Part shown: positions 5,025 through 21,518 of the stretch, one piece after another
Numbering within the stretch: the first letter of the stretch is position 1
Layout: every line of letters starts with the position of its first letter
Virus record (IMG/VR): IMGVR_UViG_3300032053_000565
Coordinates: 1 to 22,656 of that record
Direction: 5' to 3' (one strand)
DNA length: 22,656 nucleotides
From: a virus
Program-made: the position numbers and the translations under genes
The notes under the pieces: model-generated
Told to the model about the DNA's origin: nothing
Seen by the model: only the letters and a program-made list of their open reading frames with translations
Databases searched by the model: none

Positions 5025-5579
5025 ATGGCTAAGATAGGTTATATCCCAGGTGGCTTCAAACCATTCACAAAAGGTCACTACTTTTTGGTTGAAAAGGCTT
5101 CTCACGAGTGTGACAAAGTCTTTCTTCTTGTTGGTCAGGGTGACCGTATACGCCCTGGTGAACATCCTATTCCCGGTTCTGCGATGCAGGTTGTCTGGAA
5201 TAAGTTCTTGATACCCATCATGCCAGGGAACGTAGAAGTGTCGTTCGCTCCTTCACCTATTAGAGTTGCCTATGAGAAGCTCGGAGCAGCTGACAAGGAC
5301 CCGACAGATAAAAACATCCACATAGTATATGGTGATAATAAGGATTTGGCGGATAACTTCAAAAAAGAAAAACTGGATAAATACATGCCAAACCTCGTCA
5401 AGCAGAAAAGACTTGTACTCAAACCAGTTGAAAGATCCAGCAGCGTGAACATTTCTGGTACAATGATGCGAAAGTATCTACAACTGGGATTGAAGGATGA
5501 ATTCATTCAAGGTCTTCCTGATCCTGTTCAAGCAAAGGGAGAGGCTATCTGGAAACTTCTTGGCGGTCAAGAAGCTTAA
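5025..5579 (+). CDS. Nucleotidyltransferase (cytidylyl/adenylyltransferase fold)
   Basis: A 184-aa protein of the nucleotidyltransferase alpha/beta phosphodiesterase superfamily, which joins a nucleotide to a phosphorylated substrate with release of pyrophosphate. The HIGH-like motif is at residues 9-18 (GGFKPFTKGH), followed by the helix YFLVEKA. The C-terminal nucleotide-binding motif is VNISGTMMRKYL (about 141-152), equivalent to the ISSTxIR motif. A middle strand (NIHIVYGDNKDL) fits the Rossmann-like fold. Size and motifs resemble NMN adenylyltransferase and pantetheine-phosphate adenylyltransferase relatives; the substrate cannot be told from sequence. It lies 38 bases before the portal gene and is probably co-transcribed with it. 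It may serve NAD or cofactor supply, or modify a head component. Confidence 0.87.
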   Translation: MAKIGYIPGGFKPFTKGHYFLVEKASHECDKVFLLVGQGDRIRPGEHPIPGSAMQVVWNKFLIPIMPGNVEVSFAPSPIRVAYEKLGAADKDPTDKNIHIVYGDNKDLADNFKKEKLDKYMPNLVKQKRLVLKPVERSSSVNISGTMMRKYLQLGLKDEFIQGLPDPVQAKGEAIWKLLGGQEA

Positions 5580-5617: not shown

Positions 5618-7651
5618 ATGGCAAGTAACGAATCATTTTTCACAAGGCTTACACGAATCTTCCGTTCTGGACCATCTATCAGAAGGAAGATCAAGGGCTA
5701 CGACTATAACTCTTATTACGACAAGAGAGTTACTCAGAACAACCTTGGCTACAATGGTCCTCTACCATTCAAGAGAGAAGCTTCTCAGTTTTCTGTCATG
5801 GGTGCTTACGGCATTCTGAACCGTATGGCTCAGTACGCTGAGTACTCTGAGATGGAATACACTCCTATCATTGCCAAGGCACTTGACATCTATGCAGATG
5901 AGTCTTTCTCTGGTGATGAAAACGGACAGTGCTTTCACATCTCCAGTGACAATCCAGATATCAAGAAGAAGCTGGAAGAGCTTTTCTACGACACAATCAA
6001 CATTGAATTCAACGGAAGAACCTATGTAAGAAATCTTTGCAAGTATGGAGACTTCTTTCTCTATAACGAAGTAGCTCCCGACATCGGTGTTATTAACGTT
6101 CAGCCAATTGCTGTTAACGAGCTTGAACGCGAAGAAGGATTTGATCCAGAAGATCCATATGCTGTCAGATTCAAGTGGCTTACCAGAGGACAGAAGTATC
6201 TAGAGAACTGGCAAGTTACTCACATGAGAATTCTTGGCAACGACTTGTTCTTGCCATATGGAACTTCTCTCCTGGAATCTTCAAGACGTATCTGGAGACA
6301 GTATGTCATGATGGTAGACGCCATGTTGGTCTATCGTCTTGTTAGATCTCCTGAACGTAGAGTTTTCTATATTGACGTTGGAACTGTAGCTCCGAATGAC
6401 GTTCCAAACTACATGGAAGCTGTAAAGGCTTCTCTTAGGTCTCAGACAGCTGTTGACAAGCTAACCGGTAGACAAGACTACAGATATAACCCCGTAGCTG
6501 TGGATGAAGACTATTTCATCCCTATGCGTGGACCCAACACAGCCACCAAGATTGACACGCTTGCCGGTGGACAGCATGTTACAGCAACAGAAGATATTGA
6601 ACTGATTCAATCTCAGTTGTTCGCAGCTCTCGGTGTTCCAAAGGCTTACTTGGGCTATGACGAATCTCTAAGTTCCAAGGCTACTCTAGCCCAGGAAGAC
6701 ATTCGTTTCTCTAGAAGTATCAACATCATTCAAAAGATCATCATTGCTGAGCTCAACAAACTAGCAATGCTTCACCTCTATGCCTGTGGTTGGGACGGTG
6801 AAGATCTCAATGACTTTGAACTAAGGCTTTCCAATCCATCTACAGTTGCTCTACAGCAGAAGCTTGACATCTGGTCAACCAAGTTTGACATTGTTAGCAC
6901 CATCATGGGTCTTGAAGAAAGACCTGTTGACATGGAATGGATTCAGAAGGAAATCTTACAGTTCAACGATGATCAGATTTCCAAGATCAAGTTTGGTCTT
7001 AAAGAAGACAAGAAGTTCAAAGCTGCACTTGAGCTTATCACAGAACCTGACAAGGACTACGAAGATGTTGTAGATCCCTTTGATCCTTCCAGCTATGAAC
7101 TTCCAGGTGGTAATCCTCCACTACCTGAAAGAGATGAAGGTGAAGGCGACAAAGCCAAGATCACTCCATATGACGGTCAACCAAAGGATGACAGCGTTAT
7201 CTCTAACTCCATTGGAGATGGACTTCCTATCAAGGCTTCAGCTGAAGCTACAAGAAACAGGAAGAACAGACTTAGAAGAAAGAGCGATGGAGCAATTGCT
7301 GCCAATGTTCCTAAGCTAGCCGACATGATGAACTCTAGAAAGAATCAATCACTGAGAGACGTGTATGACTCCGAGTTCCTAAAGAATCCCTTCAGAGAAA
7401 GTATTGAAAACGAAATTCGCAAGGGAGCTTCAACATCTTCATTGTCTAGAGAGATGAGATCCATCATTGAGAACTTCAAGGATGCCAGTGCTCCTATTCA
7501 CCCGACACTTGACATAGACCTTCTAAGAGAAAATGAAGCTGATCGGTCAGAAATCGTTGTTCCTCTCAAACGAGATGAAAACTCTGATGAATTGATTTCT
7601 GAGGCTGACCTACATGAACTTGGGGTTGAGTTAAAGGTACCTAAGCTTTAA
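5618..7651 (+). CDS. 20: Portal vertex protein (T4 gp20 type)
   Basis: A 677-aa portal protein forming the twelve-fold ring through which DNA enters and leaves the head, and which starts head assembly. Recognised from the T4 gp20 pattern: YTPIIAKALDIYADE (about 81-95), LPYGTSLLESSRRIWRQ (about 212-228), ALVYRL-type helix then SPERRVFYIDVG (244-255), EDYFIPMRG (297-305), TLAGGQ (314-319), and ALGVPKAYLGYDES followed by ATLAQEDIRFSRSI (337-369). T4 gp20 is 524 aa; the extra length is mostly a C-terminal extension (about 485-677) that is polar and basic in its middle. A LISE-A sequence near the C-terminus matches the gp21-type cleavage pattern, but its use is unproven. GAGG lies about 13 bases before the start. 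Confidence 0.95.
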   Translation: MASNESFFTRLTRIFRSGPSIRRKIKGYDYNSYYDKRVTQNNLGYNGPLPFKREASQFSVMGAYGILNRMAQYAEYSEMEYTPIIAKALDIYADESFSGDENGQCFHISSDNPDIKKKLEELFYDTINIEFNGRTYVRNLCKYGDFFLYNEVAPDIGVINVQPIAVNELEREEGFDPEDPYAVRFKWLTRGQKYLENWQVTHMRILGNDLFLPYGTSLLESSRRIWRQYVMMVDAMLVYRLVRSPERRVFYIDVGTVAPNDVPNYMEAVKASLRSQTAVDKLTGRQDYRYNPVAVDEDYFIPMRGPNTATKIDTLAGGQHVTATEDIELIQSQLFAALGVPKAYLGYDESLSSKATLAQEDIRFSRSINIIQKIIIAELNKLAMLHLYACGWDGEDLNDFELRLSNPSTVALQQKLDIWSTKFDIVSTIMGLEERPVDMEWIQKEILQFNDDQISKIKFGLKEDKKFKAALELITEPDKDYEDVVDPFDPSSYELPGGNPPLPERDEGEGDKAKITPYDGQPKDDSVISNSIGDGLPIKASAEATRNRKNRLRRKSDGAIAANVPKLADMMNSRKNQSLRDVYDSEFLKNPFRESIENEIRKGASTSSLSREMRSIIENFKDASAPIHPTLDIDLLRENEADRSEIVVPLKRDENSDELISEADLHELGVELKVPKL

Positions 7652-7725: not shown

Positions 7726-8610
7726 ATGTCTCTCCTCAAGCACAACAAAAAGAGAAATACTGGTCTGATTAGTGAGTTCTTTGCTCGCTATATGGCAAAA
7801 GCTATTATAGAGCGTAGAGATGGTGATCTTACCAAGGCTCGTGAAATCTTTCGCAAGCACTTTCACAAGGGCACAGATTTGCATCGCGAACTCAAGTTGT
7901 TTGAGGCTTTGTACGACACAAAGGTTGCTAGCAAGGAAACTGCACACTCCATGATCCAACAGGTCAAGGAAGCATGCAAGTTGCAAAGTCAACAGAAGAT
8001 TGACCTAGAGAAGACTGCCCTTCTACATGAAGTGAACGCCACTCTAAACGATCCTGAATTCTTCAACAAGGAAGTTGAGGACTTCAAGACCTATGCCACT
8101 GTACAGGTCTTGTTGAACCACTGGAGAGGTAAGGTTGTTTCAGAGAACATCAGTGAAGCTGCTCAACTAGAAGACAGACTCATTCAACACCTTACACGTC
8201 GTGAATCTGTAAGTGAGAACAAGAAGTATCTCTCCATGACCAACGAAGACATTGATGTCTTGGTTTTGAACATCATGACAGAGAAGCTCAACTCCAAGTA
8301 TAATTCTCTCCTTTCTGAAGATCAAAAGAAGATCCTTCGTCTCTTTGTCTTTTCAAAGGACAATGTTTCGGCGAGAGAAGAACTTGCTGGATTACTTGAA
8401 GGTATTCGTCTCAGTACTATCCAGTACGCAACCAGAGTTATGAAAGACTCTTCACAAGATTCAAGTCTTGATGGTATCACGGCTGACAAACTCAATGAAG
8501 TAAAGACCTTGCTTCTAACTGAGTACAAAGATACAAAGAACGTAACCGACGAGATGGTAACCTTTTACTTGTCTGTTTGCAAACTTGAAAAGGAACTAAG
8601 AGATGAGTAA
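7726..8610 (+). CDS. Unknown helical head-module protein between portal and protease
   Basis: 294 aa, almost entirely alpha-helical by composition and rich in Lys, Glu and Leu. It starts basic (MSLLKHNKKRNTGLISEFF), followed by ERRDGDLTKAREIFRKHF. No family was recognised with certainty. In T4 the portal and protease genes are separated by the small prohead core genes 67 and 68, so position suggests a core or head-shape protein, although this one is larger. Its TAA overlaps the protease ATG (ATGAGTAA, 8603-8610), indicating coupled translation. The ATG at 7726 has GAAGGA nine bases upstream. Confidence 0.82.
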   Translation: MSLLKHNKKRNTGLISEFFARYMAKAIIERRDGDLTKAREIFRKHFHKGTDLHRELKLFEALYDTKVASKETAHSMIQQVKEACKLQSQQKIDLEKTALLHEVNATLNDPEFFNKEVEDFKTYATVQVLLNHWRGKVVSENISEAAQLEDRLIQHLTRRESVSENKKYLSMTNEDIDVLVLNIMTEKLNSKYNSLLSEDQKKILRLFVFSKDNVSAREELAGLLEGIRLSTIQYATRVMKDSSQDSSLDGITADKLNEVKTLLLTEYKDTKNVTDEMVTFYLSVCKLEKELRDE

Positions 8611-9226
8611 ACGTTTATTGCAGGAATACAGCTACTTTGAGTATTCAGTTGACACGATCAAGGAATCCCGTGAACTTCACGGTGGAAAACTTATCGTAAA
8701 AGGCGTTCTACAGCGTGCAGATACTCTGAACCAGAATGGTCGTATCTACCCAAGACCCATCCTTGAAAGGGAATTAGAGAATTACCAGAAGCTCATTCGT
8801 GAGAACCGAGCACTTGGTGAGTGTGATCATGCAGATTCTCCTGTTGTAGAACTCAAGCACGTCAGTCACGTTATCCGTAAAGCTTGGATGGATGGAAACG
8901 TTCTTCTAGGTGAAGTAGAGATTCTAGAGAGTCAACCAATGGGCAAGATCATTGCCGGTTTGATTGAATCTGGTATCAAGGTTGGTATCTCTTCAAGAGC
9001 TCTAGGGTCTGTCAAGAGAGTTGGAGAGAACAATGTTGTTCAAGAAGACCTCCAGCTTATCTGCTGGGACTTCGTAAGTGAACCAAGTACTCCAGGTGCT
9101 TTTATGATGGCTGAAGGCAAAGTCTACGACGACAACGTACTTAAAAGAGTATTCAATAAGTCTGATCGTATTGACCGTGCTGTAAACGAGATACTGTCAC
9201 TTAACAGAAATAAAAAGGTTCTCTAG
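8603..9226 (+). CDS. 21: Prohead maturation protease (T4 gp21 type)
   Basis: A 207-aa serine protease that cleaves scaffold, capsid and internal head proteins during prohead maturation, usually after (L/I)-x-E. The family pattern is clear: LNQNGRIYPRPILE (42-55), LGECDHAD with the catalytic His at 76, the catalytic Ser in VGISSRALGS (127-136, Ser130/131), and WDFVSEPSTPGAF (155-167), whose Asp156 fits the third catalytic residue. T4 gp21 has the corresponding GELNHP, GVSSRGLGS and a downstream Asp. Length matches T4 gp21 (about 212 aa). It overlaps the preceding gene by eight bases and is followed two bases later by a putative head protein. Confidence 0.95.
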   Translation: MSKRLLQEYSYFEYSVDTIKESRELHGGKLIVKGVLQRADTLNQNGRIYPRPILERELENYQKLIRENRALGECDHADSPVVELKHVSHVIRKAWMDGNVLLGEVEILESQPMGKIIAGLIESGIKVGISSRALGSVKRVGENNVVQEDLQLICWDFVSEPSTPGAFMMAEGKVYDDNVLKRVFNKSDRIDRAVNEILSLNRNKKVL

Positions 9227-9228
9227 TC

Positions 9229-9687
9229 ATGAAGCTAACGAAATCCGAATTCAAAGAAATGCTAAAGGAGTGCATCGTTGAGTTGCTTACCGAGGGTAAA
9301 CTCTCGGCTGGACAACTTGCTGGTGATAACTCACACCAGCGTCCAACGTTTGCTCAACACCAGCAACAGGAATCACCAGAAGGTTATACTGCCAACACTC
9401 GTTTGAACGAGGCTGTTAGAGCAACTGCTATGGCTGTAGCTAAGGGTGATCCAAAGCAGTCAAAGATGTTTGAGAGTGTGTTTCAAGATACAGCAATGAC
9501 GACTCTTCAAGAAAAACTTCAAGCTGACAAGGTTCTGTCTGGTGGTGGTGGTTACGGCGGATTGCCAGCAACCCCTCAAGAAAAAGAATCTGACACGGTA
9601 CAACTTAACTCGTTTGCTAACAAGAGCCGCTGGGCTACTTTGGCTTTTGGTGGATCAAATGGAAAATTGCCTGGAGGAAACCAATAA
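9229..9687 (+). CDS. Probable internal head protein with capsid-targeting-like leader
   Basis: 152 aa. Residues 1-22 (MKLTKSEFKEMLKECIVELL then TE) form an amphipathic helix ending LLTE before GKLSAGQ, matching the (L/I)-x-E site of gp21-type proteases. Very similar leaders start other genes in this window. The rest is Gln-, Ala- and Gly-rich with a SGGGGYGGLPATP stretch (about 104-116). No enzyme motif is seen. It lies two bases after the protease gene, so co-expression with the protease is expected. Most likely a core or packaged internal protein by analogy with T4 internal proteins; function unproven. Confidence 0.8.
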   Translation: MKLTKSEFKEMLKECIVELLTEGKLSAGQLAGDNSHQRPTFAQHQQQESPEGYTANTRLNEAVRATAMAVAKGDPKQSKMFESVFQDTAMTTLQEKLQADKVLSGGGGYGGLPATPQEKESDTVQLNSFANKSRWATLAFGGSNGKLPGGNQ

Positions 9688-12581: not shown

Positions 12582-14495
12582 ATGAATAAGACTTTTACAC
12601 TATCCCAACTTGCAGAGAGCGTTAACAAGCGCAGCCTAGGTGCTGACGCCCCAAGACTTATCTCCAAGTGGGGAGCAACCGGACTATTGGACGGTTTGCA
12701 GGGACTACAGAAGGAGACGATGAGCAAGCTCCTTGAGAATCAGACTGCACAGTTGATTCAAGAAAGCAACTCTCTATCTCTAGGTGGTGCATCACTCACC
12801 AGCTCTGGACAGATTGCCGGATTCTCGAACGTGGCATTCCCAATCGTTCGTAGAGTGTTCGCTGGATTGGTAGCTAATGAAATCGTTAGCGTTCAGCCAA
12901 TGAGCCTCCCATCTGGACTCTTGTTTTACTTGGATTACACCTACGGCAGCAATGTCGGTGGAGATGCAGGTCTTACACTGTCTAACAGCTCAACTGTTAA
13001 CACCTATACACGTGGACAGTCTGTGTACAACAACCCAACTGGTAACCAGATCCGTTCTGGCTCGTTGGCAACTGGTGGTCAGTACGACCTCGTTGGTACT
13101 GGATTCTCTAGAGTTCACAAGCAAGCGCTAACAATCACTGGTTCTTCGGATTCAGTTGGTTACTGGCTCTCAGGCTCGGTTTGGACACCAGCTGGTCTTG
13201 TAACGACAGATGCCGACTTCGTTGGATTCAACGCACGTTGGGCAAACTTTGATTCCGGTGTTGAGCAAGTGCTCATTGACGGAACCCTAGACTACACCTT
13301 CTTGATGATCTCGGCTTCCGAGTTTGTCAGCAAGATTGTTGGTACAGATCTAACCTCGGTAGAGCAGATTGCTATCACAGGTTTCGGTTCAGCTGCGAAC
13401 TCTGCAACAGCTTGGGGTGCAAACTTCCAAGGTGGTACAGGCGTACTCAACCTTCGCAAGCTCAACAAGCGTGGTGATTGGAACGGAAATACCGGACTCT
13501 TTACGCCAAACGCACTAGGTGGCTCGCACATCCAGTTCGTCATCGGTGTTGCAAATGCCGGAACAGCTCCTGCGCCAAGCAACGGTGCAACCAACTCAGT
13601 AACAGCTTCGGCAGTTATTGCAGACGCGCTCTCGGTTAACAGTGACGGTTCTACTCTAACGATCCCATCGTTTGAAACTGACTTCGCTATCAACCCACCA
13701 ACTCCAGTTATTCCTGAAGTTGATATCAAGATCCAGAGCATCGCAGTTACGGCAACAACCCGTAAGCTCAGAGCTCGCTGGTCGCCAGAAATGGCTCAGG
13801 ACCTCACAGCCTTCTATTCAATTGACGTAGAAGTTGAGTTGACCAACATCTTGAGCGAGATGATTACTCTAGATATTGACCGCGAAATCTTGAACGATCT
13901 TCTATCACAGGCATCGGCAGCTAACCTTTACTGGTCCCGTGCTCCAGGTAGAATCGTTAACAAGATTAACGGACAGGAAGCTCTTCATAACAGCGTTCTT
14001 GCACCAGGACCACAGTTCTTCGGAAATGTGCGTGAATGGTACGAGACCCTAATGGAGACCATCACAGATGCAGCTAACACCATCCACAAGAAGACTTTGC
14101 GTGGTTCGGGTAACTTCATCGTAACATCGCCAGACGTAGCAACCATCCTTGAACACTTGGTCGCTTACAAGGCAGCTTACAAGATTGATTCTGACGGTCA
14201 AGTCAAGGACTCAATGACCATCGGTGCAGAAGCTATCGGTACTCTAAACAACAGATATGTTGTCTACAAGGACCCATACTTCCCAAGCAACAAGCTCTTG
14301 ATTGGTTTGAAGGGTAACACCTTCCTAGAGTCCGGATACATCTACGCACCATACGTGCCTTTGATCCTAACTCCAGTAATCTACGCACAGGAAGACTTCA
14401 CGCCACGTAAGGGAGTAATGACCCGCTACGGTAAGAAGATGGTCAGAGCGGACTTTTACGCAACTGTCACCGTGCTAGATATGAACTTGATCTAA
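12582..14495 (+). CDS. 23: Major capsid protein precursor (T4 gp23 type)
   Basis: A 637-aa major capsid precursor. The T4 gp23 pattern is visible: GGASLTSSGQIAGF, then IVRRVFAGLVANEIVSVQPM (88-107), RKLRARWSPEMAQDL (about 394-408), a GSGNFIVTSPDVATIL strand-helix near 507, and the C-terminal SGYIYAPYVPL with a TRYGKKM end. Residues 1-61 form the prohead leader: helical and ending in LIQE (58-61), the (L/I)-x-E site cut by gp21-type protease; T4 gp23 loses 65 residues after FLTE. The region about 120-390 is longer and quite different from T4, probably an enlarged insertion domain. GGAG is seven bases before the ATG, and a strong terminator follows the gene. T4 gp23 needs GroEL for folding. Confidence 0.95.
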   Translation: MNKTFTLSQLAESVNKRSLGADAPRLISKWGATGLLDGLQGLQKETMSKLLENQTAQLIQESNSLSLGGASLTSSGQIAGFSNVAFPIVRRVFAGLVANEIVSVQPMSLPSGLLFYLDYTYGSNVGGDAGLTLSNSSTVNTYTRGQSVYNNPTGNQIRSGSLATGGQYDLVGTGFSRVHKQALTITGSSDSVGYWLSGSVWTPAGLVTTDADFVGFNARWANFDSGVEQVLIDGTLDYTFLMISASEFVSKIVGTDLTSVEQIAITGFGSAANSATAWGANFQGGTGVLNLRKLNKRGDWNGNTGLFTPNALGGSHIQFVIGVANAGTAPAPSNGATNSVTASAVIADALSVNSDGSTLTIPSFETDFAINPPTPVIPEVDIKIQSIAVTATTRKLRARWSPEMAQDLTAFYSIDVEVELTNILSEMITLDIDREILNDLLSQASAANLYWSRAPGRIVNKINGQEALHNSVLAPGPQFFGNVREWYETLMETITDAANTIHKKTLRGSGNFIVTSPDVATILEHLVAYKAAYKIDSDGQVKDSMTIGAEAIGTLNNRYVVYKDPYFPSNKLLIGLKGNTFLESGYIYAPYVPLILTPVIYAQEDFTPRKGVMTRYGKKMVRADFYATVTVLDMNLI

Positions 14496-14504
14496 TTCCG
14501 GTAT

Positions 14505-14522
14505 AATACCTCAACAGGTATT
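14505..14522 (+). promoter_or_regulatory. Short hairpin after capsid gene
   Basis: AATACCT and AGGTATT form a perfect 7-bp stem with a CAAC loop just after the capsid stop and nine bases before the main terminator. The sequence TATAAT (14502-14507) overlaps its first arm but has no properly spaced -35 element. It may be a 3'-end stability element of the capsid message. Confidence 0.4.
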
Positions 14523-14530
14523 GCCCAACT

Positions 14531-14559
14531 AAGCCCAAGCCTAAAAACTTGGGCTTTTT
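14531..14559 (+). terminator. Intrinsic terminator after major capsid gene
   Basis: AAGCCCAAG pairs perfectly with CTTGGGCTT (9-bp, GC-rich core) around an 8-base loop, followed by TTT and a T-rich GTTGT. This is a classic rho-independent terminator 36 bases after the capsid stop codon. It separates the capsid message from the homing endonuclease gene. Confidence 0.85.
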
Positions 14560-14573
14560 GTTGTACATCTCAC

Positions 14574-14611
14574 TAGACATGAACTATACTAATTCCGTTA
14601 GACATGAACTA
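14574..14611 (+). repeat. Direct repeat of 13 bases upstream of homing endonuclease gene 1
   Basis: TAGACATGAACTA occurs at 14574-14586 and again at 14599-14611, separated by 12 bases. The second copy forms most of the hairpin that covers the ribosome-binding site of the gene at 14622. It could be a binding site for a regulator or a trace of insertion. Confidence 0.6.
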
Positions 14612-14617
14612 ACGGAG
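14593..14617 (+). promoter_or_regulatory. Hairpin sequestering the ribosome-binding site of homing endonuclease gene 1
   Basis: CCGTTAG (14595-14601) pairs perfectly with CTAACGG (14609-14615) around ACATGAA. Adding T14594-A14616 and a T14593-G14617 wobble gives a 9-bp stem. The GGAG ribosome-binding site (14614-14617) lies entirely within the stem, 4 bases before the ATG. Comparable hairpins limit translation of T4 homing endonucleases such as I-TevI from read-through transcripts. Confidence 0.65.
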
Positions 14618-14621
14618 AAAA

Positions 14622-15311
14622 ATGAAAATAGTTTACAATGGATATAGTGAAGTTGGTGGCGTATACAAGATAACCAACATTTCAAATGAACGTTTGTATG
14701 TTGGTTCAACAGGTTGTTTTCGCAAGAGAGCAATGAATCATCTTAACCAATTAACCGCCAATACACACAAAAACACATTCCTACAAAATGACTTTAATAA
14801 GTGTGGATCTGATGCATTTAGATTTGAAGTACTTGATGTTGTTGAAGGTGATAAGGCAAATAGACTAAACCATGAACAACACTTCCTAGATCAATTCTAT
14901 GATGGACAAAAAAACTGCTATAATCTTGTTGACAAAGCTACAGATAACAGAAGTGACACTCATAATAAAGAAACTATAAACCCTCTTATAGATGGGCGCT
15001 GTAAGTCACCATCTCCCGAAACTCTCTTAAAGCGTGGACAAGCCATAAGAAAGTCCAAATCAACACCTGAACAAAAAGAGAAGGCAAGACAGAACTGTCT
15101 CAATGGTCGTTGGAAAAATCACTCAGCCAACGTCACCGTAACAAATCTTGTAACCAAAGAGATAGCCACAATTACCGGAAGTGTCCGTGAGTGGTGTCTG
15201 TTACGTAACCTGTCTTACAAGGCTTTTAATCAATTGTTAAATGGCAAAATCAAGAGTTCTGGCGGGTGGGTAACATTTCCAGAATCAGGAATCTATTTAA
15301 GTCTTGAATAG
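14622..15311 (+). CDS. GIY-YIG homing endonuclease 1
   Basis: A 229-aa free-standing homing endonuclease that cuts a DNA target in a sister phage so that its own gene is copied in. The GIY-YIG nuclease domain is residues about 12-101: GVY (13-15), YVG (26-28), catalytic Arg36, metal-binding Glu85 in NHEQHFLDQF, and Asn101. Spacings match I-TevI (Tyr6, Tyr17, Arg27, Glu75, Asn90). The C-terminal part (about 165-229) has a helix-turn-helix DNA-binding look (GSVREWCLLRNLSYKAFNQL), like IENR1/NUMOD modules. Base use is more A/T-rich than the capsid gene, fitting a mobile element. It lies between the capsid terminator and the gene at 15326. Confidence 0.93.
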   Translation: MKIVYNGYSEVGGVYKITNISNERLYVGSTGCFRKRAMNHLNQLTANTHKNTFLQNDFNKCGSDAFRFEVLDVVEGDKANRLNHEQHFLDQFYDGQKNCYNLVDKATDNRSDTHNKETINPLIDGRCKSPSPETLLKRGQAIRKSKSTPEQKEKARQNCLNGRWKNHSANVTVTNLVTKEIATITGSVREWCLLRNLSYKAFNQLLNGKIKSSGGWVTFPESGIYLSLE

Positions 15312-15325
15312 CGAAGGTATACCCA

Positions 15326-15565
15326 ATGAAAATTACCAAAACAGAGCTCTTGGAAATGATTGATCGCACGGTGTTCAACATTGTAACCGAGAGATTCAAC
15401 TTGCTTGATGAGGACTATCAAGGATTTGACAAGCTCTCAAAGAAGCTTGGATCTAAGGGAGCAAAAAATCCAAAGGCTCTAGCAGCTTGGATTGGTCGTA
15501 ACAAGTATGGTAAAGGTAAGTTCCAGAAGGCAGCTGCTTCTGGTAAGAAGATGGGAAAGAAGTAA
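15326..15565 (+). CDS. Small basic probable internal head protein
   Basis: 79 aa. Residues 1-22 (MKITKTELLEMIDRTVFNIV then TE) are strikingly similar to the leader of the protein at 9229 (K-(I/L)-TK-(T/S)-E-(L/F)-x-EM, same length, ending V/L-T-E). The remainder is a basic module: FDKLSKKLGSKG, then KALAAWIGRNKYGKGKFQKA and AASGKKMGKK. This (A)-x-x-IG-x-x-KYGK pattern recurs in the next gene product. Lys-rich composition suggests DNA contact inside the head. Its stop overlaps the next ATG (TAATG). GAAGGT precedes the start. Confidence 0.8.
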   Translation: MKITKTELLEMIDRTVFNIVTERFNLLDEDYQGFDKLSKKLGSKGAKNPKALAAWIGRNKYGKGKFQKAAASGKKMGKK

Positions 15566-16185
15566 TGACCATTATTACTGCCAAAACTTTGAAACAACTA
15601 GTTGAAGCCAAGATTCTAGAAGCTCTTGCCGAGAAGGCTCCAAAGGGTTGGGAGAAGACTGTAAAGGGAATGAAGAAGCACAAGGACATCACAAATCCTT
15701 TTGCTCTCGCCAATTACATGAAGAACAAAGGCTTTAAGTCTCACAAGCAAGACGAGGGTGCAGCTATCGTTGGTGAAGCCAATGCTTTGTACGAGAAGCA
15801 CATCGGATTCAAGAACCTTGTGAAGCAACTCACAGACAAGGGTCACAGTGAAGACAGTGCCAAAGCTATAGCCTATCACATTGGTGTTGCGAAGTATGGT
15901 AAGAAAAAGATGACTCAGGCTGCTGCTTCTCACAAGCCATTGAGTGACAAAGATGCTAAGAACGAGTCCATGATTAATCAAGAACCATGGGATGCTAAAC
16001 GCGTACTCAAGGTTATGGTTCATGTTCTCAAGAAGAATCCAGAGCTAGCAGCAATGTCTCCAGATGAAGTTGCAATGCAATTCGTAGAGAACATCCCAGA
16101 GATTACAGACAGCGAAGTTGTAACTCCTGGAGAACTTGAAAAACTAGCCGCTATGGCTCTCAAGATGGTTGGACAGAGTGGCTAA
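15565..16185 (+). CDS. Probable internal head protein with KYGK-type modules
   Basis: 206 aa. The N-terminal leader (TLKQLVEAKILEALAE, about 8-23) ends in a L-A-E site. It is followed by KAPKGWEKTVKGMKKHK and TNPFALANYMKNKGFKSH (about 24-60), a helical motif seen in many phage structural proteins. Residues about 80-127 repeat the module of the preceding gene: FKNLVKQLTDKG, KAIAYHIGVAKYGKKKMTQA, AASHKPL. The last 70 residues are acidic and helical. No catalytic motif. It is translationally coupled to the gene at 15326, so the pair probably works together; packaging in the head is inferred from the leader. Confidence 0.8.
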   Translation: MTIITAKTLKQLVEAKILEALAEKAPKGWEKTVKGMKKHKDITNPFALANYMKNKGFKSHKQDEGAAIVGEANALYEKHIGFKNLVKQLTDKGHSEDSAKAIAYHIGVAKYGKKKMTQAAASHKPLSDKDAKNESMINQEPWDAKRVLKVMVHVLKKNPELAAMSPDEVAMQFVENIPEITDSEVVTPGELEKLAAMALKMVGQSG

Positions 16186-16228
16186 CGGGAATCCCAGCTT
16201 CAATAATCCAGCAGTGTTTGTTGGAACT

Positions 16229-16873
16229 ATGGACGAACCTACCAAGAAAGTAGGTTCAACAGCAATGGCAAGAGAAGAGAAGACTATGAAGAAGACACCA
16301 AAGAAGATGACGCTCAGTGAATTCAATACCATGGTTCGTGGTATGGTGAAAGAAGCTCTTGTCAAGGAACTTGCCGAAGCAAAGGGAAAGAAGAAAGATC
16401 CATTCAGCAAGCTTAAGACAGCTGACAGTCGTGATTCTCATGATGCTGTTGGTAAGCGCAGAGCTCAAGAAGATGACAAGAAGAAGTCCAAGAAAGACAT
16501 GGATGCAGCCAAGAAAAAGGGTAAACTCCAAGAATTTGGAACTCAACCTCCTCCCGTTCCAGCCAGAGCAATGATTCAGTCTCCACAGAAGGTTGGCGGA
16601 CCACCTACAGCTCAGCAAGCTGCTCAACCGGGCAACAAGAGCGTCCCACCTCCCGTACCTAACGTCAAGCCACAGCCCGTTGATATCAATGCTGTGATGG
16701 CAAAGAGACAAGCGGGTCAACCTCTCACTCCAGAAGAGAAGAGAGCATATCTAGATAACGTAGCCAACCAGAACAAGACGGCTCAGGGACAAGCACAACA
16801 ACAAGCTGCTCAGTCGCCAGTTGGACAGTCACTCAACGCAATTGAGAAGAATCCTAACCAGTTCGTCAAATAG
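16229..16873 (+). CDS. Lys-rich / Pro-Gln-rich probable head protein
   Basis: 214 aa from the ATG at 16229. The start is uncertain: TTG 16169 would overlap the previous gene, while ATG 16286 has the best ribosome-binding site (GAAGAGAAG) and would begin MKKTPKKMTLSEF. From that point the segment MTLSEFNTMVRGMVKEALVK, ending ELAE-AK, is another capsid-targeting-like leader with a L-A-E site. A very basic stretch follows (KGKKKDPFSKLK, DDKKKSKKDMDAAKKKGK), then a disordered Pro/Gln-rich half with repeated PPPVP (two copies). No family was recognised. It ends 14 bases before the DUF1704 gene. Confidence 0.75.
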   Translation: MDEPTKKVGSTAMAREEKTMKKTPKKMTLSEFNTMVRGMVKEALVKELAEAKGKKKDPFSKLKTADSRDSHDAVGKRRAQEDDKKKSKKDMDAAKKKGKLQEFGTQPPPVPARAMIQSPQKVGGPPTAQQAAQPGNKSVPPPVPNVKPQPVDINAVMAKRQAGQPLTPEEKRAYLDNVANQNKTAQGQAQQQAAQSPVGQSLNAIEKNPNQFVK

Positions 16874-16887
16874 TCTAGTTATATGAA

Positions 16888-18132
16888 ATGGCTCACTCAG
16901 AAACTTCCGTATACAAACGAAAGGTCAAACTCCTTTCAAAGAAGTATATTCACTTACAGAACAGCATATCTGTTCTAAGTGACATCCATTGGAAGCCTTC
17001 AGTCAAGAACAAGTTCCAAGCCTTGGAATTCAAGAGTTTTCCCGAAGTTACAAAAGAAGACTTCGGAGATCCAACCTATGACTATGCCAAGAAGCACAAA
17101 CAACTTACCGACTTCGTAGAAGAAGTTGAATATCACCTAAGTTCTGGTGACCCTGTTGGTCGTATGCTTATTCGTAACACGAAAGCATGGATCTTGGGAC
17201 TTGAACTATCAGAAGCAAAGAACACTCCGGAGTTCTATGAGATCTCAAAGAAGATCTATGGTTCCAGTGAGGATCGTATCTTTGGAATGAAGCTCATTGA
17301 CATAGCCAAGAAGCTTGACAAGTGGTTTACAGAACTTGAAATCAAACAACCTGTGTTAGAGAAGACGGTTACCTCCTCAGAGATGGTAACGGAGCTCAAG
17401 ACACGTTTGAAGAGTTACTTCAAGAAAGATATTGCTGTTCATGAAAAAGAACACATGAGTTCTGACGCCGATGCTGGTCTTGATAGTATTAACATCCGAA
17501 AGGGTGCTGTGTTTACTCTAAAAGACGTTGGAGTCTTTGAAGTTCATGAAGGCTGGGTTCATATGGGTTCGTTCATGAACGGGCACCAGCAGCCTTATAC
17601 GGAATTCCTTGGAGAGCCTTGTCCCGGTACCGACATCGTTCAGGAAGGTTTGGGAGCTTTAACCGAAGTTGTGACCATGAACATCTATCCAGCCCGAGCT
17701 AAGAAGATCATAGACAGGGTTATTGCCATTAACATGGCAGAGAACGGTGCCAGCTTCTTAGATGTCTATCGGTGGTATCTCAACAAGACGAAGGATGATC
17801 CAGACACAGCTTTCGTTAACACAGAAAGAGTGTTTCACGGTGGACTTATTCAGGGTGGAGCTCCATTCACAAGAGACATCATATACCTTAAGGGGTTCTT
17901 GTTTATTGTGAAGTTCCTTGACATGTGCTTTGACAAGAACCATCCAGAACTTATTCCATATCTCTTTGATGGCAATCTTTACATAGACGATATTCCAAGT
18001 ATATACCTTTTGGCTAAACAGGGTATTGTTAAGCCTCCCACATATGTGCCTACCATCTTCAGGGAAGACATAAATCACCTGAAGAAGTTTCTAGAGAAGT
18101 TCAGTTTCATCAAAGACAAGCTTCGTTCGTAA
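16888..18132 (+). CDS. DUF1704/MATCAP-type putative zinc metallopeptidase
   Basis: 414 aa, full length for the DUF1704 ('QEGLA motif', MATCAP) family. The zinc-binding HEGWVH (220-225) is an HExxxH motif; NGHQQPY (231-237) follows; QEGLGALTE (252-260) carries the downstream Glu253; RVFHGG (314-319) and FTRDIIYLKGF (327-337) complete the signature. Eukaryotic members of the family are tubulin tyrosine carboxypeptidases using the HExxxH pair plus a later Glu; bacterial members are largely uncharacterised. All expected residues are present, so it is probably active. The substrate is unknown: it could trim a virion protein C-terminus or act on a host protein. The N-terminus has no signal peptide and no capsid-targeting leader. 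It sits between the KYGK-type head genes and the gp13-like neck gene. Confidence 0.85.
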   Translation: MAHSETSVYKRKVKLLSKKYIHLQNSISVLSDIHWKPSVKNKFQALEFKSFPEVTKEDFGDPTYDYAKKHKQLTDFVEEVEYHLSSGDPVGRMLIRNTKAWILGLELSEAKNTPEFYEISKKIYGSSEDRIFGMKLIDIAKKLDKWFTELEIKQPVLEKTVTSSEMVTELKTRLKSYFKKDIAVHEKEHMSSDADAGLDSINIRKGAVFTLKDVGVFEVHEGWVHMGSFMNGHQQPYTEFLGEPCPGTDIVQEGLGALTEVVTMNIYPARAKKIIDRVIAINMAENGASFLDVYRWYLNKTKDDPDTAFVNTERVFHGGLIQGGAPFTRDIIYLKGFLFIVKFLDMCFDKNHPELIPYLFDGNLYIDDIPSIYLLAKQGIVKPPTYVPTIFREDINHLKKFLEKFSFIKDKLRS

Positions 18133-18162
18133 CCTCTAGCATTAACGCTATTTAAGAGAATC

Positions 18163-19407
18163 ATGGTTAATTTCAATCAAACTCTCAGACCAACACCGTT
18201 CGGGCTCTATGATTCTGACATCCAGTTTCAGAGAGACGCTGACAGCATGGTTGTATTTGTTATGCGTAAGCTTGGAGAAGACATTCTTTCGGTTGAACTT
18301 ACCAAGAAGGAAATCTGGGCATGCTTTGAAGAAGCTTGTCGTGAGTTCAATGGCTACATCATTGAGTACCAAGCTATATCCAACTTGGTTAATCTTCTAG
18401 GCACGTCTACCGGATCTATTGACAGCACTACAGGGTTGAACACAATCAATCTAACCAATGCCTATGTTGGACAGAACCTGGAGTTTCTTGATCGCTTAGC
18501 TGAGCCGTATGCTAACATCATTGGTTTCGGTTCAACCCAAGACAGCTTTTCTGGGTCTATTCACCTAAGACCAGGAGTTCAGAACTACGATCTCTACACA
18601 GAACTGGTCAATGATAGTGGAAATCCAATTTATACCACCAACAATCCTACCGGTGGCAAAATGCGTATCTATGAAGTCTTCCACTTCATGCCTCTTCAGT
18701 ATGTTTTCAACAGTAACCTTGCTTCTAACTTCGTTGCTCAGGGATTGCCTGTAGAGAGCTACATTCCAGACACAAGATTCTATGTTCTTCCCTTGTTTGA
18801 AGACATTCTCAGGGCTGACATGCTCAAGAGTGCTGCCAAGGTAAGAAGATCTCACTACTCATACAAGATTTCAGGTAGAAATATTCAGGTATTCCCTGCT
18901 CCAAGTAACCTAATTGAAGGTTTGAACAACCAGTTGTGGATTAGAGTTGGCTTTACAAGCAATGCTACACCGTTTCCATCCGGTTCATTCTTTGATGCTA
19001 GCGGTTCTCTCATTGGTGGAGGAACTTCTACCACAGCTGCAACATATTTCGGTGCTTCTAACCCTGCCAATGTTCCCTTTGGTCTTGTTACCTATGCTAC
19101 ACTGAATCAGTGGGCAAAGAACTGGATCATGCAATATACCCTGGCGCTCGCAAGAGAAGTTTTGGGTTCTATCCGTAGAAAAATCAAGAGTCTTCCGATC
19201 CCAGGTGCTACCCTTGAGTTGGACGGTGAAGAGTTGGTTACTCAAGCTAGAGAAGACAAGGAAAGACTGCTTACTCACCTCAATGAATACCTTCAGGGTC
19301 TCAGCTTCAGCAAGCTAGCAGAACAACAGGCTACACAAGCAGAAAACCTGATGAAACAGATGAGTTTTCTTCCAATGCCTCCAGCATATGCGATTAAGAT
19401 CTGGTAA
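18163..19407 (+). CDS. 13: Neck / head-completion protein (T4 gp13-like)
   Basis: A 414-aa structural protein placed directly before gp14-like and gp15-like genes, as gene 13 is in T4. Features: DADSMVVFVMRKLGEDILSV then LTKKEIWACFEEACREFNGY near the N-terminus, a central beta-rich region, RNIQVFPAPSNLIEGLNNQL, and a C-terminal helical part MQYTLALAREVLGSIRRKIK with PGATLELDGEELV, a pattern common in T4-type neck proteins. Such proteins seal the portal after packaging and form the tail-docking ring. T4 gp13 is 309 aa, so this one is longer. Assignment rests on pattern and gene order; another virion connector role is possible. Confidence 0.65.
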   Translation: MVNFNQTLRPTPFGLYDSDIQFQRDADSMVVFVMRKLGEDILSVELTKKEIWACFEEACREFNGYIIEYQAISNLVNLLGTSTGSIDSTTGLNTINLTNAYVGQNLEFLDRLAEPYANIIGFGSTQDSFSGSIHLRPGVQNYDLYTELVNDSGNPIYTTNNPTGGKMRIYEVFHFMPLQYVFNSNLASNFVAQGLPVESYIPDTRFYVLPLFEDILRADMLKSAAKVRRSHYSYKISGRNIQVFPAPSNLIEGLNNQLWIRVGFTSNATPFPSGSFFDASGSLIGGGTSTTAATYFGASNPANVPFGLVTYATLNQWAKNWIMQYTLALAREVLGSIRRKIKSLPIPGATLELDGEELVTQAREDKERLLTHLNEYLQGLSFSKLAEQQATQAENLMKQMSFLPMPPAYAIKIW

Positions 19408-19436
19408 TTGATTATAATACAAACGGGGGCTCTTGA

Positions 19437-19455
19437 TTCATACTGAACCTATGAA
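19437..19455 (+). promoter_or_regulatory. Hairpin covering the start codon of homing endonuclease gene 2
   Basis: TTCATA (19437-19442) pairs perfectly with TATGAA (19450-19455) around a 7-base loop. The ATG at 19451 is inside the stem. TTGA (19433-19436) and TCAA (19458-19461) can extend it after a 2-base bulge. Upstream are TATAATAC (19413-19420) and a GGGGG run (19425-19429) that is too far from this ATG for normal use. Confidence 0.45.
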
Positions 19456-20098
19456 ATTCAATTATCAAACCAATTCTAACAAATCAGGTATTTACAAAAT
19501 TACCAATACGATTGTTAACAAGGCATATATTGGTTCTGCTGCTAAATTTGAACGAAGGTGGTATGATCATAAACGAGCCTTTGAAAAAGGAACTCATAGA
19601 AATCAACATCTTCTCAACAGTTTCAATACACATGGAACAGATGCATTTGTATTTGATGTTATTGAAGTAATGGAAAACTCAACCAAAGCTGAACGATTAG
19701 TTAGAGAAGAATTCCATCTCCAAGAGATCATCAAACAAGGAATTGAAGTCTATAACTCTCAACTCAAACCGACCAAAGAGGCTAAAGAACGATCGTGTTT
19801 CTCTAAGACGCCAGAGGAAACAGCTTGTGATGCATCTAATCGTTTTACAAAACTCTGGGCAGACCCTTCTTACAAACAAGAAGTCTCGTCCAAAATCAAA
19901 GCTTTCTACAATACAGAAGAAGGTCGTCAGCTATCAATTGAGCGCAATACTGAAGCCTGGAAAGATAGTGCGGAAAGACGAGAGAAAGCTAAAGAACGCA
20001 TGGTTAAGCGCAATGCTTCCATGACATTAGAACAGAAGACCATCGCAGCTCAAAAGATGACCGAAGGTCGTAGAATTGCTAAATTACGCCGACAATGA
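19451..20098 (+). CDS. GIY-YIG homing endonuclease 2
   Basis: 215 aa from the ATG at 19451; a TTG at 19433, three bases after GGGGG, could add six residues. GIY (13-15), YIG (26-28), Arg36, Glu86 or Glu87 in VREEFHLQ, and Asn102 give a complete GIY-YIG active site, with the F-N-x-x-G-x-D-x-F pattern around 58-67. The C-terminal half is basic and helical (PSYKQEVSSKIKAFYNTEEG, SAERREKAKERMVKRN), probably the DNA-recognition part. It fills the gap between the gp13-like and gp14-like genes and ends 16 bases before the latter. A/T-rich, consistent with a mobile gene. The start site is in a hairpin. Confidence 0.92.
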   Translation: MKFNYQTNSNKSGIYKITNTIVNKAYIGSAAKFERRWYDHKRAFEKGTHRNQHLLNSFNTHGTDAFVFDVIEVMENSTKAERLVREEFHLQEIIKQGIEVYNSQLKPTKEAKERSCFSKTPEETACDASNRFTKLWADPSYKQEVSSKIKAFYNTEEGRQLSIERNTEAWKDSAERREKAKERMVKRNASMTLEQKTIAAQKMTEGRRIAKLRRQ

Positions 20099-20808: not shown

Positions 20809-20824
20809 CCCATACTTGCATGGG
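20809..20824 (+). promoter_or_regulatory. Hairpin overlapping the ribosome-binding site of homing endonuclease gene 3
   Basis: CCCAT (20809-20813) pairs perfectly with ATGGG (20820-20824) around ACTTGC. The GGG belongs to the GGGAG ribosome-binding site (20822-20826) that lies five bases before the ATG at 20832. The stem is short but GC-rich, and also ties up the alternative ATG at 20820. Confidence 0.5.
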
Positions 20825-20831
20825 AGTAATC

Positions 20832-21518
20832 ATGGAAACAATCTATAATGGAAACTCAAAAGCTAGCGGCACATACAAGATAGTCAACAAAACAAATAGC
20901 AAAACTTATTATGGTTCAGCGAAGTGTTTTCAAGTGAGAGCTTCGCAACATCTTAAGGATTTAATCACAAATAAACACGGAAACAGACATCTTCAAGGAT
21001 CATTCAACTTGGATGGAGCTGATTCATTCGTATTTGAAGTTCTTGAAGTGATTGAAGGCACCAAGCAAGACAGACTTGATGCCGAGCAAAAGCTTCTTAA
21101 CCAATTCTGGGATAATTGTGTGAACTGTTATAATATTGAGAAAACATCTTACAGTAGAGAAGGAAGTAAAGACAAAAGTCCGGAAGCTTCATTTCAAAGA
21201 CGTTCAAGGTCGGTTATAGGAAGGAAACATACTGAAGCTTCTAAACAATACATGTCACAGATACACAAAGCTTTGATTTCTAACCCACGAATGACAGGGA
21301 AAACTCATACAGAAGAAACAAAGCTTAAGATGTCAGCAGCTAGAGCAAACAAAAGAAAAATCAAGGCGATTTGCATTTCTTCTGGGGTTATAAGTGAATT
21401 TTTAAGTGTAATTGAAGCTTCTAAACAGCTAGAGATTACACCAAGCTGTATTGTTCGTGTTGCTAAGGGTGACCGACAAAAGACACACGGATACAGGTTT
21501 GAATATATGAATGAATAG
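20832..21518 (+). CDS. GIY-YIG homing endonuclease 3 with NUMOD3 and IENR1-type domains
   Basis: 228 aa from the ATG at 20832, chosen because GGGAG is five bases upstream and the N-terminus then matches endonuclease 1; an ATG at 20820 would add four residues. Active site: GTY (13-15), YYG (26-28), Arg36, Glu85 (AEQKLLNQF), Asn101. Two NUMOD3-like DNA-binding repeats follow (GRKHTEASKQYM and GKTHTEETKLKMSAARA). The C-terminal helix-turn-helix (EFLSVIEASKQLEITPSCI, then GYRFEY) is of IENR1 type. It is clearly related to endonuclease 1, especially in the first 100 residues, and lies between the gp14-like and gp15-like genes. Confidence 0.94.
   Translation: METIYNGNSKASGTYKIVNKTNSKTYYGSAKCFQVRASQHLKDLITNKHGNRHLQGSFNLDGADSFVFEVLEVIEGTKQDRLDAEQKLLNQFWDNCVNCYNIEKTSYSREGSKDKSPEASFQRRSRSVIGRKHTEASKQYMSQIHKALISNPRMTGKTHTEETKLKMSAARANKRKIKAICISSGVISEFLSVIEASKQLEITPSCIVRVAKGDRQKTHGYRFEYMNE

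Follow-up and report, generated by a model that had tools for sequence, protein, structure and literature searches.

Closest described systems

MATCAP1/TMCP1 (KIAA0895L) and MATCAP2/TMCP2 are eukaryotic tubulin metallocarboxypeptidases. Their family, DUF1704, also has bacterial members, annotated as "flavohemoglobin expression-modulating QEGLA motif protein" (TIGR02421), which are widespread and uncharacterised. In T4-like phages, accessory genes include those for Alt and the internal proteins (IPs). In the T4 internal proteins, the N-terminus bears a short capsid-targeting sequence (CTS) that is cleaved after L/I-x-E (PMC9026906; PMC5694885). C-terminal processing of a head protein is known for T4 Alt, the agent being gp21 (PMC9026906). 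In addition, phage ATP-grasp peptide ligases have been described and were proposed to modify host proteins (PMC4431377).

We analysed a stretch of 22,656 nt (22.7 kb, hereafter the window) from the IMG/VR virus record IMGVR_UViG_3300032053_000565, in which a MATCAP-family gene (phage MATCAP) lies between the major capsid and neck genes of a T4-like phage. The features referred to below are the following:

5618–7651, + strand: portal protein (gp20 type); PF07230, E 3e-63
8603–9226, + strand: gp21-type prohead serine protease (S77), the usual enzyme of head maturation; PF03420, E 1.3e-23; phrog_207, E 4.9e-44
12582–14495, + strand: Gp23-type major capsid protein, which bounds the cargo interval on the left and is conserved; PF07068, E 2e-75
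14622–15311, + strand: GIY-YIG homing endonuclease just after the capsid gene; PF01541, E 1.4e-7; phrog_314, E 4.6e-22
15326–15565, + strand: 79-aa protein with a tag-like N-terminus resembling that of ORF 9229; local alignment
15565–16185, + strand: probable packaged head protein with a tag-like N-terminal helix (MTIITAKTLKQLVEAKILEALAE followed by K) and a PKGWEKTVKGMKKH-type domain; ORF, LxE site
16169–16873, + strand: K/P/Q-rich probable packaged head protein directly upstream of phage MATCAP; ORF, LxE sites
16888–18132, + strand: MATCAP/DUF1704-family metallopeptidase gene; open frame, 414 aa
18163–19407, + strand: neck / head-tail adaptor, which bounds the cargo interval on the right and is conserved; phrog_211, E 5.7e-9

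Family, fold and active site

The original prediction had placed the protein in the DUF1704/MATCAP family on the strength of five motifs. The assignment was borne out by a Pfam profile search, in which PF08014 (MATCAP) matched with 296.4 bits (cut-off 27; E 3.7e-88) over profile positions 2–363 of 365, i.e. at full length. The motifs HEGWVH, NGHQQP, QEGLG, RVFHGG and FTRDIIYLKG were all present in the protein, but not all are typical of the family; since its consensus is RVFRGG and FTKD, the RVFHGG and FTRD of phage MATCAP are departures from it. The zinc motif HExxxH is found as HEGWVH at residues 220–225 (H220, E221 and H225), and E253, the glutamate of the xEG motif within QEGLG (252–256), is the predicted third zinc ligand. 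E221 and E253 are the counterparts of E281 and E316, on which TMCP1 depends (PMC10499314), and are spaced by 32 residues against 35 in TMCP1.

With the NCBIfam profile of the bacterial QEGLA equivalog (TIGR02421), the protein scored 231.9 bits, below the cut-off of 338.65, which leaves it outside that equivalog. No PHROGs family matched it, nor did any of the PADLOC profiles of known anti-phage defence proteins. Searches of PDB sequences by phmmer (single protein) and hmmsearch (bacterial profile) gave nothing meaningful; the relationship to human MATCAP was recovered from the PDB by fold comparison only. For this comparison, an AlphaFold2 model was used (mean pLDDT 91.1, pTM 0.89). Its five best Foldseek matches in the PDB were human MATCAP chains (7z5g, 7z6s; E 7.5e-7 to 2.6e-6, probability 1.00), and next came two M32-type carboxypeptidases, 3dwc and 3hq2 (E about 1e-2). 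Both the DUF1704 match and the zincin-like fold, on which the family claim had been staked, were thus found, the latter in a predicted model. Phage MATCAP resembles MATCAP1/TMCP1 and MATCAP2/TMCP2 in its full-length PF08014 match, its HExxxH motif with the xEG glutamate and its best PDB match, and differs from them in sharing just 15–20% identity in structural alignments, with TM values of 0.59–0.68 (by target).

In an alignment with 88 main-group bacterial sequences, 65 columns were near-invariant (at least 97% identical). Phage MATCAP keeps 50 of these despite an overall identity of just 34%, which argues that its catalytic apparatus is under constraint. In a wider alignment of 99 sequences, distant subfamilies included, 26 of the 31 near-invariant columns are kept. 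H220, E221, H225 and E253 are retained in both alignments, in columns at least 97% identical in the bacterial homologues, and the protein appears to be intact, with a complete set of active-site residues. Three basic positions that are near-invariant elsewhere differ (R317H, K329R and K363N), and an A256G change is found inside the QEGLA motif. The changes at R317, K329 and K363 suggest altered substrate recognition; they could reflect either altered specificity or reduced activity.

Probable bacterial origin and rarity among viruses

Judging from sequence similarity, bacterial DUF1704/QEGLA proteins are the probable source of phage MATCAP. Members of the family are common in bacteria (14 of 150 Pseudomonadota genomes), and the best matches, from Myxococcota, Bdellovibrionota and Gammaproteobacteria, have the same length, the motifs and 33–38% identity, with no bacterial relative above 38%. 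What separates phage MATCAP from the TIGR02421 proteins, besides its score below the equivalog cut-off, is the A256G replacement, the three basic changes and a very long branch of 2.66 changes per column, with which its exact position in the tree is unsure.

In the virus collections searched, the protein is very rare. IMG/VR (2.9 million contigs) was scanned with the protein, a two-row alignment, a 20-row alignment and a C-terminal alignment, bearing in mind that motif scans can miss divergent copies. The sole match besides the source was L002, a 5.3 kb contig carrying a near-identical fragment (MATCAP at ~100% identity, the same junctions and a few SNPs), and the two alignment-based scans and the C-terminal motif scan revealed no new virus relative. 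The C-terminal patterns, FTKD and LFxGK, do not match phage MATCAP itself, so that scan probes more bacteria-like copies only. In BFVD, no viral structural match was obtained under E 0.001.

A tblastn search of 50,697 phage records gave a single match, in Pseudomonas phage Y1 (L003, OQ572403.1:51473-76690), a record flagged UNVERIFIED "complete genome". This candidate was rejected as a phage MATCAP, the stretch being Pseudomonas chromosome. The copy is flanked by lysS (lysyl-tRNA synthetase), adk (adenylate kinase), ppc (PEP carboxylase), cheB and a metal ATPase, and it nests among Pseudomonadaceae-type sequences.

Among the MATCAP-family proteins of the collections searched, phage MATCAP alone has a genuine virus context. 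An assembly artefact, in which a bacterial gene had been misjoined to phage DNA, would agree with the homologues being otherwise bacterial. However, the second contig L002 has the same junctions with a few SNPs, the spacing of the gene is operon-like, and its composition is phage-like (GC 0.42 and GC3 0.47, similar to the structural genes; 0.37–0.38 and 0.30–0.31 in the homing endonucleases). Moreover, all bacterial relatives stand at 38% identity or less, and we regard such a misjoin as extremely improbable. Phage MATCAP is therefore genuine and apparently intact; it represents a known family in a virus, which is very rare, and its location is unusual.

The capsid-neck interval

Loci from 80 capsid-protein relatives (54–80% identity) were compared. 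The MATCAP gene was found in none of the 80 within the locus DNA examined, and in none of 50 whole records of relatives, many of which are fragments; the same whole-record search succeeded in 8 of 8 bacterial genomes taken as a positive control. The neck protein at the right border has orthologues of 43–60% in the relatives listed and matches in 26 loci. Both borders are present in 26 loci, where the gap between the capsid and neck genes is between 154 b and 9.7 kb long (it lies at 14495–18163 in the window) and its contents vary. L085 carries a GNAT acetyltransferase there, whereas L144 has Thg1 as well as an ADP-ribosyltransferase domain of Arr-like type, which scores just short of the Pfam cut-off. 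Mom-like proteins are encoded at this place in both L095 and L102, and L137 has a protein resembling RNA ligases, which is also below cut-off. With unrelated enzymes in different phages, this hypervariable interval is a cargo site.

The same interval was observed to be variable in L085, L088, L092, L094, L095, L100, L102, L115, L121, L137 and L144. In L144, the product of 13596–14411 combines a tag-like N-terminus with an Arr-like domain at its C-terminus, a layout reminiscent of T4 Alt. In L085, a 217-aa protein encoded just after the capsid gene (12857–13510) is similar to the C-terminal portion of the capsid protein; it may be a vertex-type protein or a capsid protein that arose by duplication.

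Possible packaging tags and the neighbours of phage MATCAP

Phage MATCAP begins 14 bases after ORF 16169–16873, and 30 bases separate its end from the neck gene, which is on the same strand. Its predicted placement between probable packaged head proteins and a neck gene holds, with the tag-like N-terminus of ORF 16169–16873 on one side and the phrog_211 adaptor on the other. Helix-like N-terminal stretches, most of them with L/I-x-E sites, occur in ORFs 9229, 15326, 15565, 16169 and 3611. In ORF 16169–16873 the likelier start is the ATG at 16265, and the tag-like N-terminal helix ends in L-A-E followed by A; a crude tag score missed this ORF, and its LxE sites were found by separate inspection for sites. 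Outside the window, its protein was found in L002 only, while the PKGWEKTVKGMKKH-type domain of the 15565–16185 protein recurs in the cargo gene of the nearest relative (L085).

The proteins of 9229–9687 and 15326–15565 are otherwise different, and were seen to share a similar N-terminal stretch of ~20 residues (MKLTKSEFKEML... and MKITKTELLEMI..., respectively). Local alignment of these N-termini gave a score of 51; shuffled sequences averaged 20 (sd 3.8), and none of 300 shuffles reached 51. This common stretch is likely a packaging tag of the phage.

Phage MATCAP could, in principle, ride in the capsid together with its tagged neighbours and act on host proteins early after injection, as T4 Alt does. 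The three upstream neighbours with tag-like N-termini and LxE sites speak for this, as does the Arr-like domain encoded behind a tag-like N-terminus in the L144 interval; by analogy, the tag-like start of that enzyme would favour packaged enzymes at the capsid-neck site. Phage MATCAP itself, however, lacks a capsid-targeting-like N-terminus, and its first 70 residues contain no L/I-x-E, the features that mark T4-type internal proteins. Nor do the interval genes of relatives show an excess of tag-like starts (13/106, vs 37/212 other genes), and a packaged and injected effector appears rather unlikely to us. Compared with T4 Alt and the IPs, phage MATCAP is likewise an accessory gene of a T4-like phage whose neighbours bear N-terminal tags with L/I-x-E, but it is untagged and belongs to another enzyme class. 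A "packaged cargo island" was considered as a description of the interval and is not claimed, because tag-like N-termini lack enrichment there.

Head maturation or an accessory function

The original prediction had suggested that the protein may be a late C-terminal-trimming peptidase, and a second maturation protease besides the gp21 type. The family, the intact active-site residues, the fold and the head/neck location are borne out, whereas a second head-maturation protease is not supported. Such an enzyme would shorten capsid, scaffold or neck proteins from their C-terminal ends during assembly. The close spacing on one strand to a tagged head-protein gene and to the neck gene would suit such a role, and the C-terminal processing of T4 Alt offers a precedent, although it is carried out by gp21 (PMC9026906). 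Against it, the gene is missing from 80 of 80 capsid relatives' loci and from all 50 records, in an interval that swaps its cargo; an ordinary gp21-type protease is already encoded (8603–9226); and phage MATCAP carries no CTS-like tag. In addition, the major capsid protein, the neck protein, gp21 and several other shared proteins have no extra C-terminal tail relative to their counterparts in MATCAP-free relatives; since they end where those end, no extra tail is available for trimming. Taken together, absence from 80 loci, variable cargo, lack of a tag and lack of extra C-termini leave a core maturation protease unsupported, and we consider this reading improbable. A lineage-specific trimming of virion proteins may nevertheless occur. 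Although both peptidases lie within the same gene cluster, the gp21-type S77 enzyme is a serine endopeptidase, whereas the MATCAP type is by homology a zinc exopeptidase and is not conserved in the relatives.

On balance, it seems reasonably probable that phage MATCAP is an accessory late metallocarboxypeptidase taken from bacteria, kept in the cargo interval and probably acting on a host protein. Its full-length PF08014 match, HExxxH with E253, the 50 of 65 columns kept and the MATCAP-like model support this reading, as do the structural-gene-like GC and GC3 and the second contig. The sporadic presence of the gene, the occurrence of enzymes at this position in relatives and the untagged N-terminus make an accessory enzyme likelier than a required head-maturation protease. 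From homology and gene order we infer the following activity, timing, site of action and substrate class. An ancestor of this T4-like phage would have acquired a MATCAP/QEGLA gene from bacteria long ago and retained it in the variable interval between the major capsid and neck genes. The protein would be made late, together with the structural proteins, as its spacing to both neighbours suggests; TATAAATA, the late promoter motif of T4, shows no enrichment across the window (8 occurrences against 13 expected), so it is the gene order that points to late expression. By homology, the enzyme would remove exposed C-terminal residues one by one in a zinc-dependent manner, E221 being the general base and the zinc being held by H220, H225 and E253. 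It would act in the infected cell, late, and its substrate would be a host protein tail or a peptide tag. Whereas the eukaryotic enzymes act on tubulin, no tubulin is expected in the bacterial host. A host-protein target, which the original prediction had also allowed, is likelier than a virion-protein one. Some observations sit less well with an in-cell accessory enzyme. The gene adjoins others whose products have packaging-tag-like N-termini, and co-packaging by another route may take place; R317H, K329R and K363N fall at otherwise near-invariant positions; and the very long branch blurs donor and timing.

A special case of the accessory enzyme would be an eraser of tags, e.g. glutamates, added to host or phage proteins by RimK-like ATP-grasp ligases, in a bacterial parallel to tubulin deglutamylation by TMCP/MATCAP. 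In eukaryotes, members of the family both deglutamylate and detyrosinate tubulin (PMC10499314), and in 7 of 80 bacterial loci the MATCAP-family gene adjoins both an RLAN-RimK ATP-grasp ligase and a GNAT-C39 protein, a neighbourhood which weakly hints at a tag-and-trim pair like that of tubulin. Yet these are just seven loci, all gammaproteobacterial where named and not from the lineages nearest to phage MATCAP; bacterial neighbourhoods are otherwise mixed, making for a weak functional lead, and no ATP-grasp gene was found within the 22.7 kb window. Erasure of RimK-type tags is thus only a tentative proposal, and we think it equally doubtful that the phage protein erases ligase-added or genetically encoded C-terminal residues on host proteins during infection. 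If true, such an eraser of C-terminal tags would be the equivalent, in viruses and bacteria, of the tubulin tail code.

The family of tubulin detyrosination and deglutamylation is also used, with its active-site residues intact, in a phage. Phages tend to retain enzymes whose targets matter, and for this reason the substrate of phage MATCAP could reveal what the widespread bacterial QEGLA proteins do. Moreover, the capsid-neck interval is a place to seek further protein-modifying accessory enzymes in the same phage group.

Other features of the window

Three GIY-YIG homing endonucleases lie amid the head and neck genes (14622–15311, 19433–20098 and 20820–21518), with a GC of 0.37–0.38, clearly below that of their neighbours. 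A GroEL chaperonin is encoded on the opposite strand at 2–1687 (−), upstream of the head cassette (phrog_5725, E 4e-147). Before the portal gene, 5025–5579 encodes a nucleotidyltransferase-like protein (weak NMN adenylyltransferase/citrate lyase ligase match), a relative of which sits inside the capsid-neck interval in L100.
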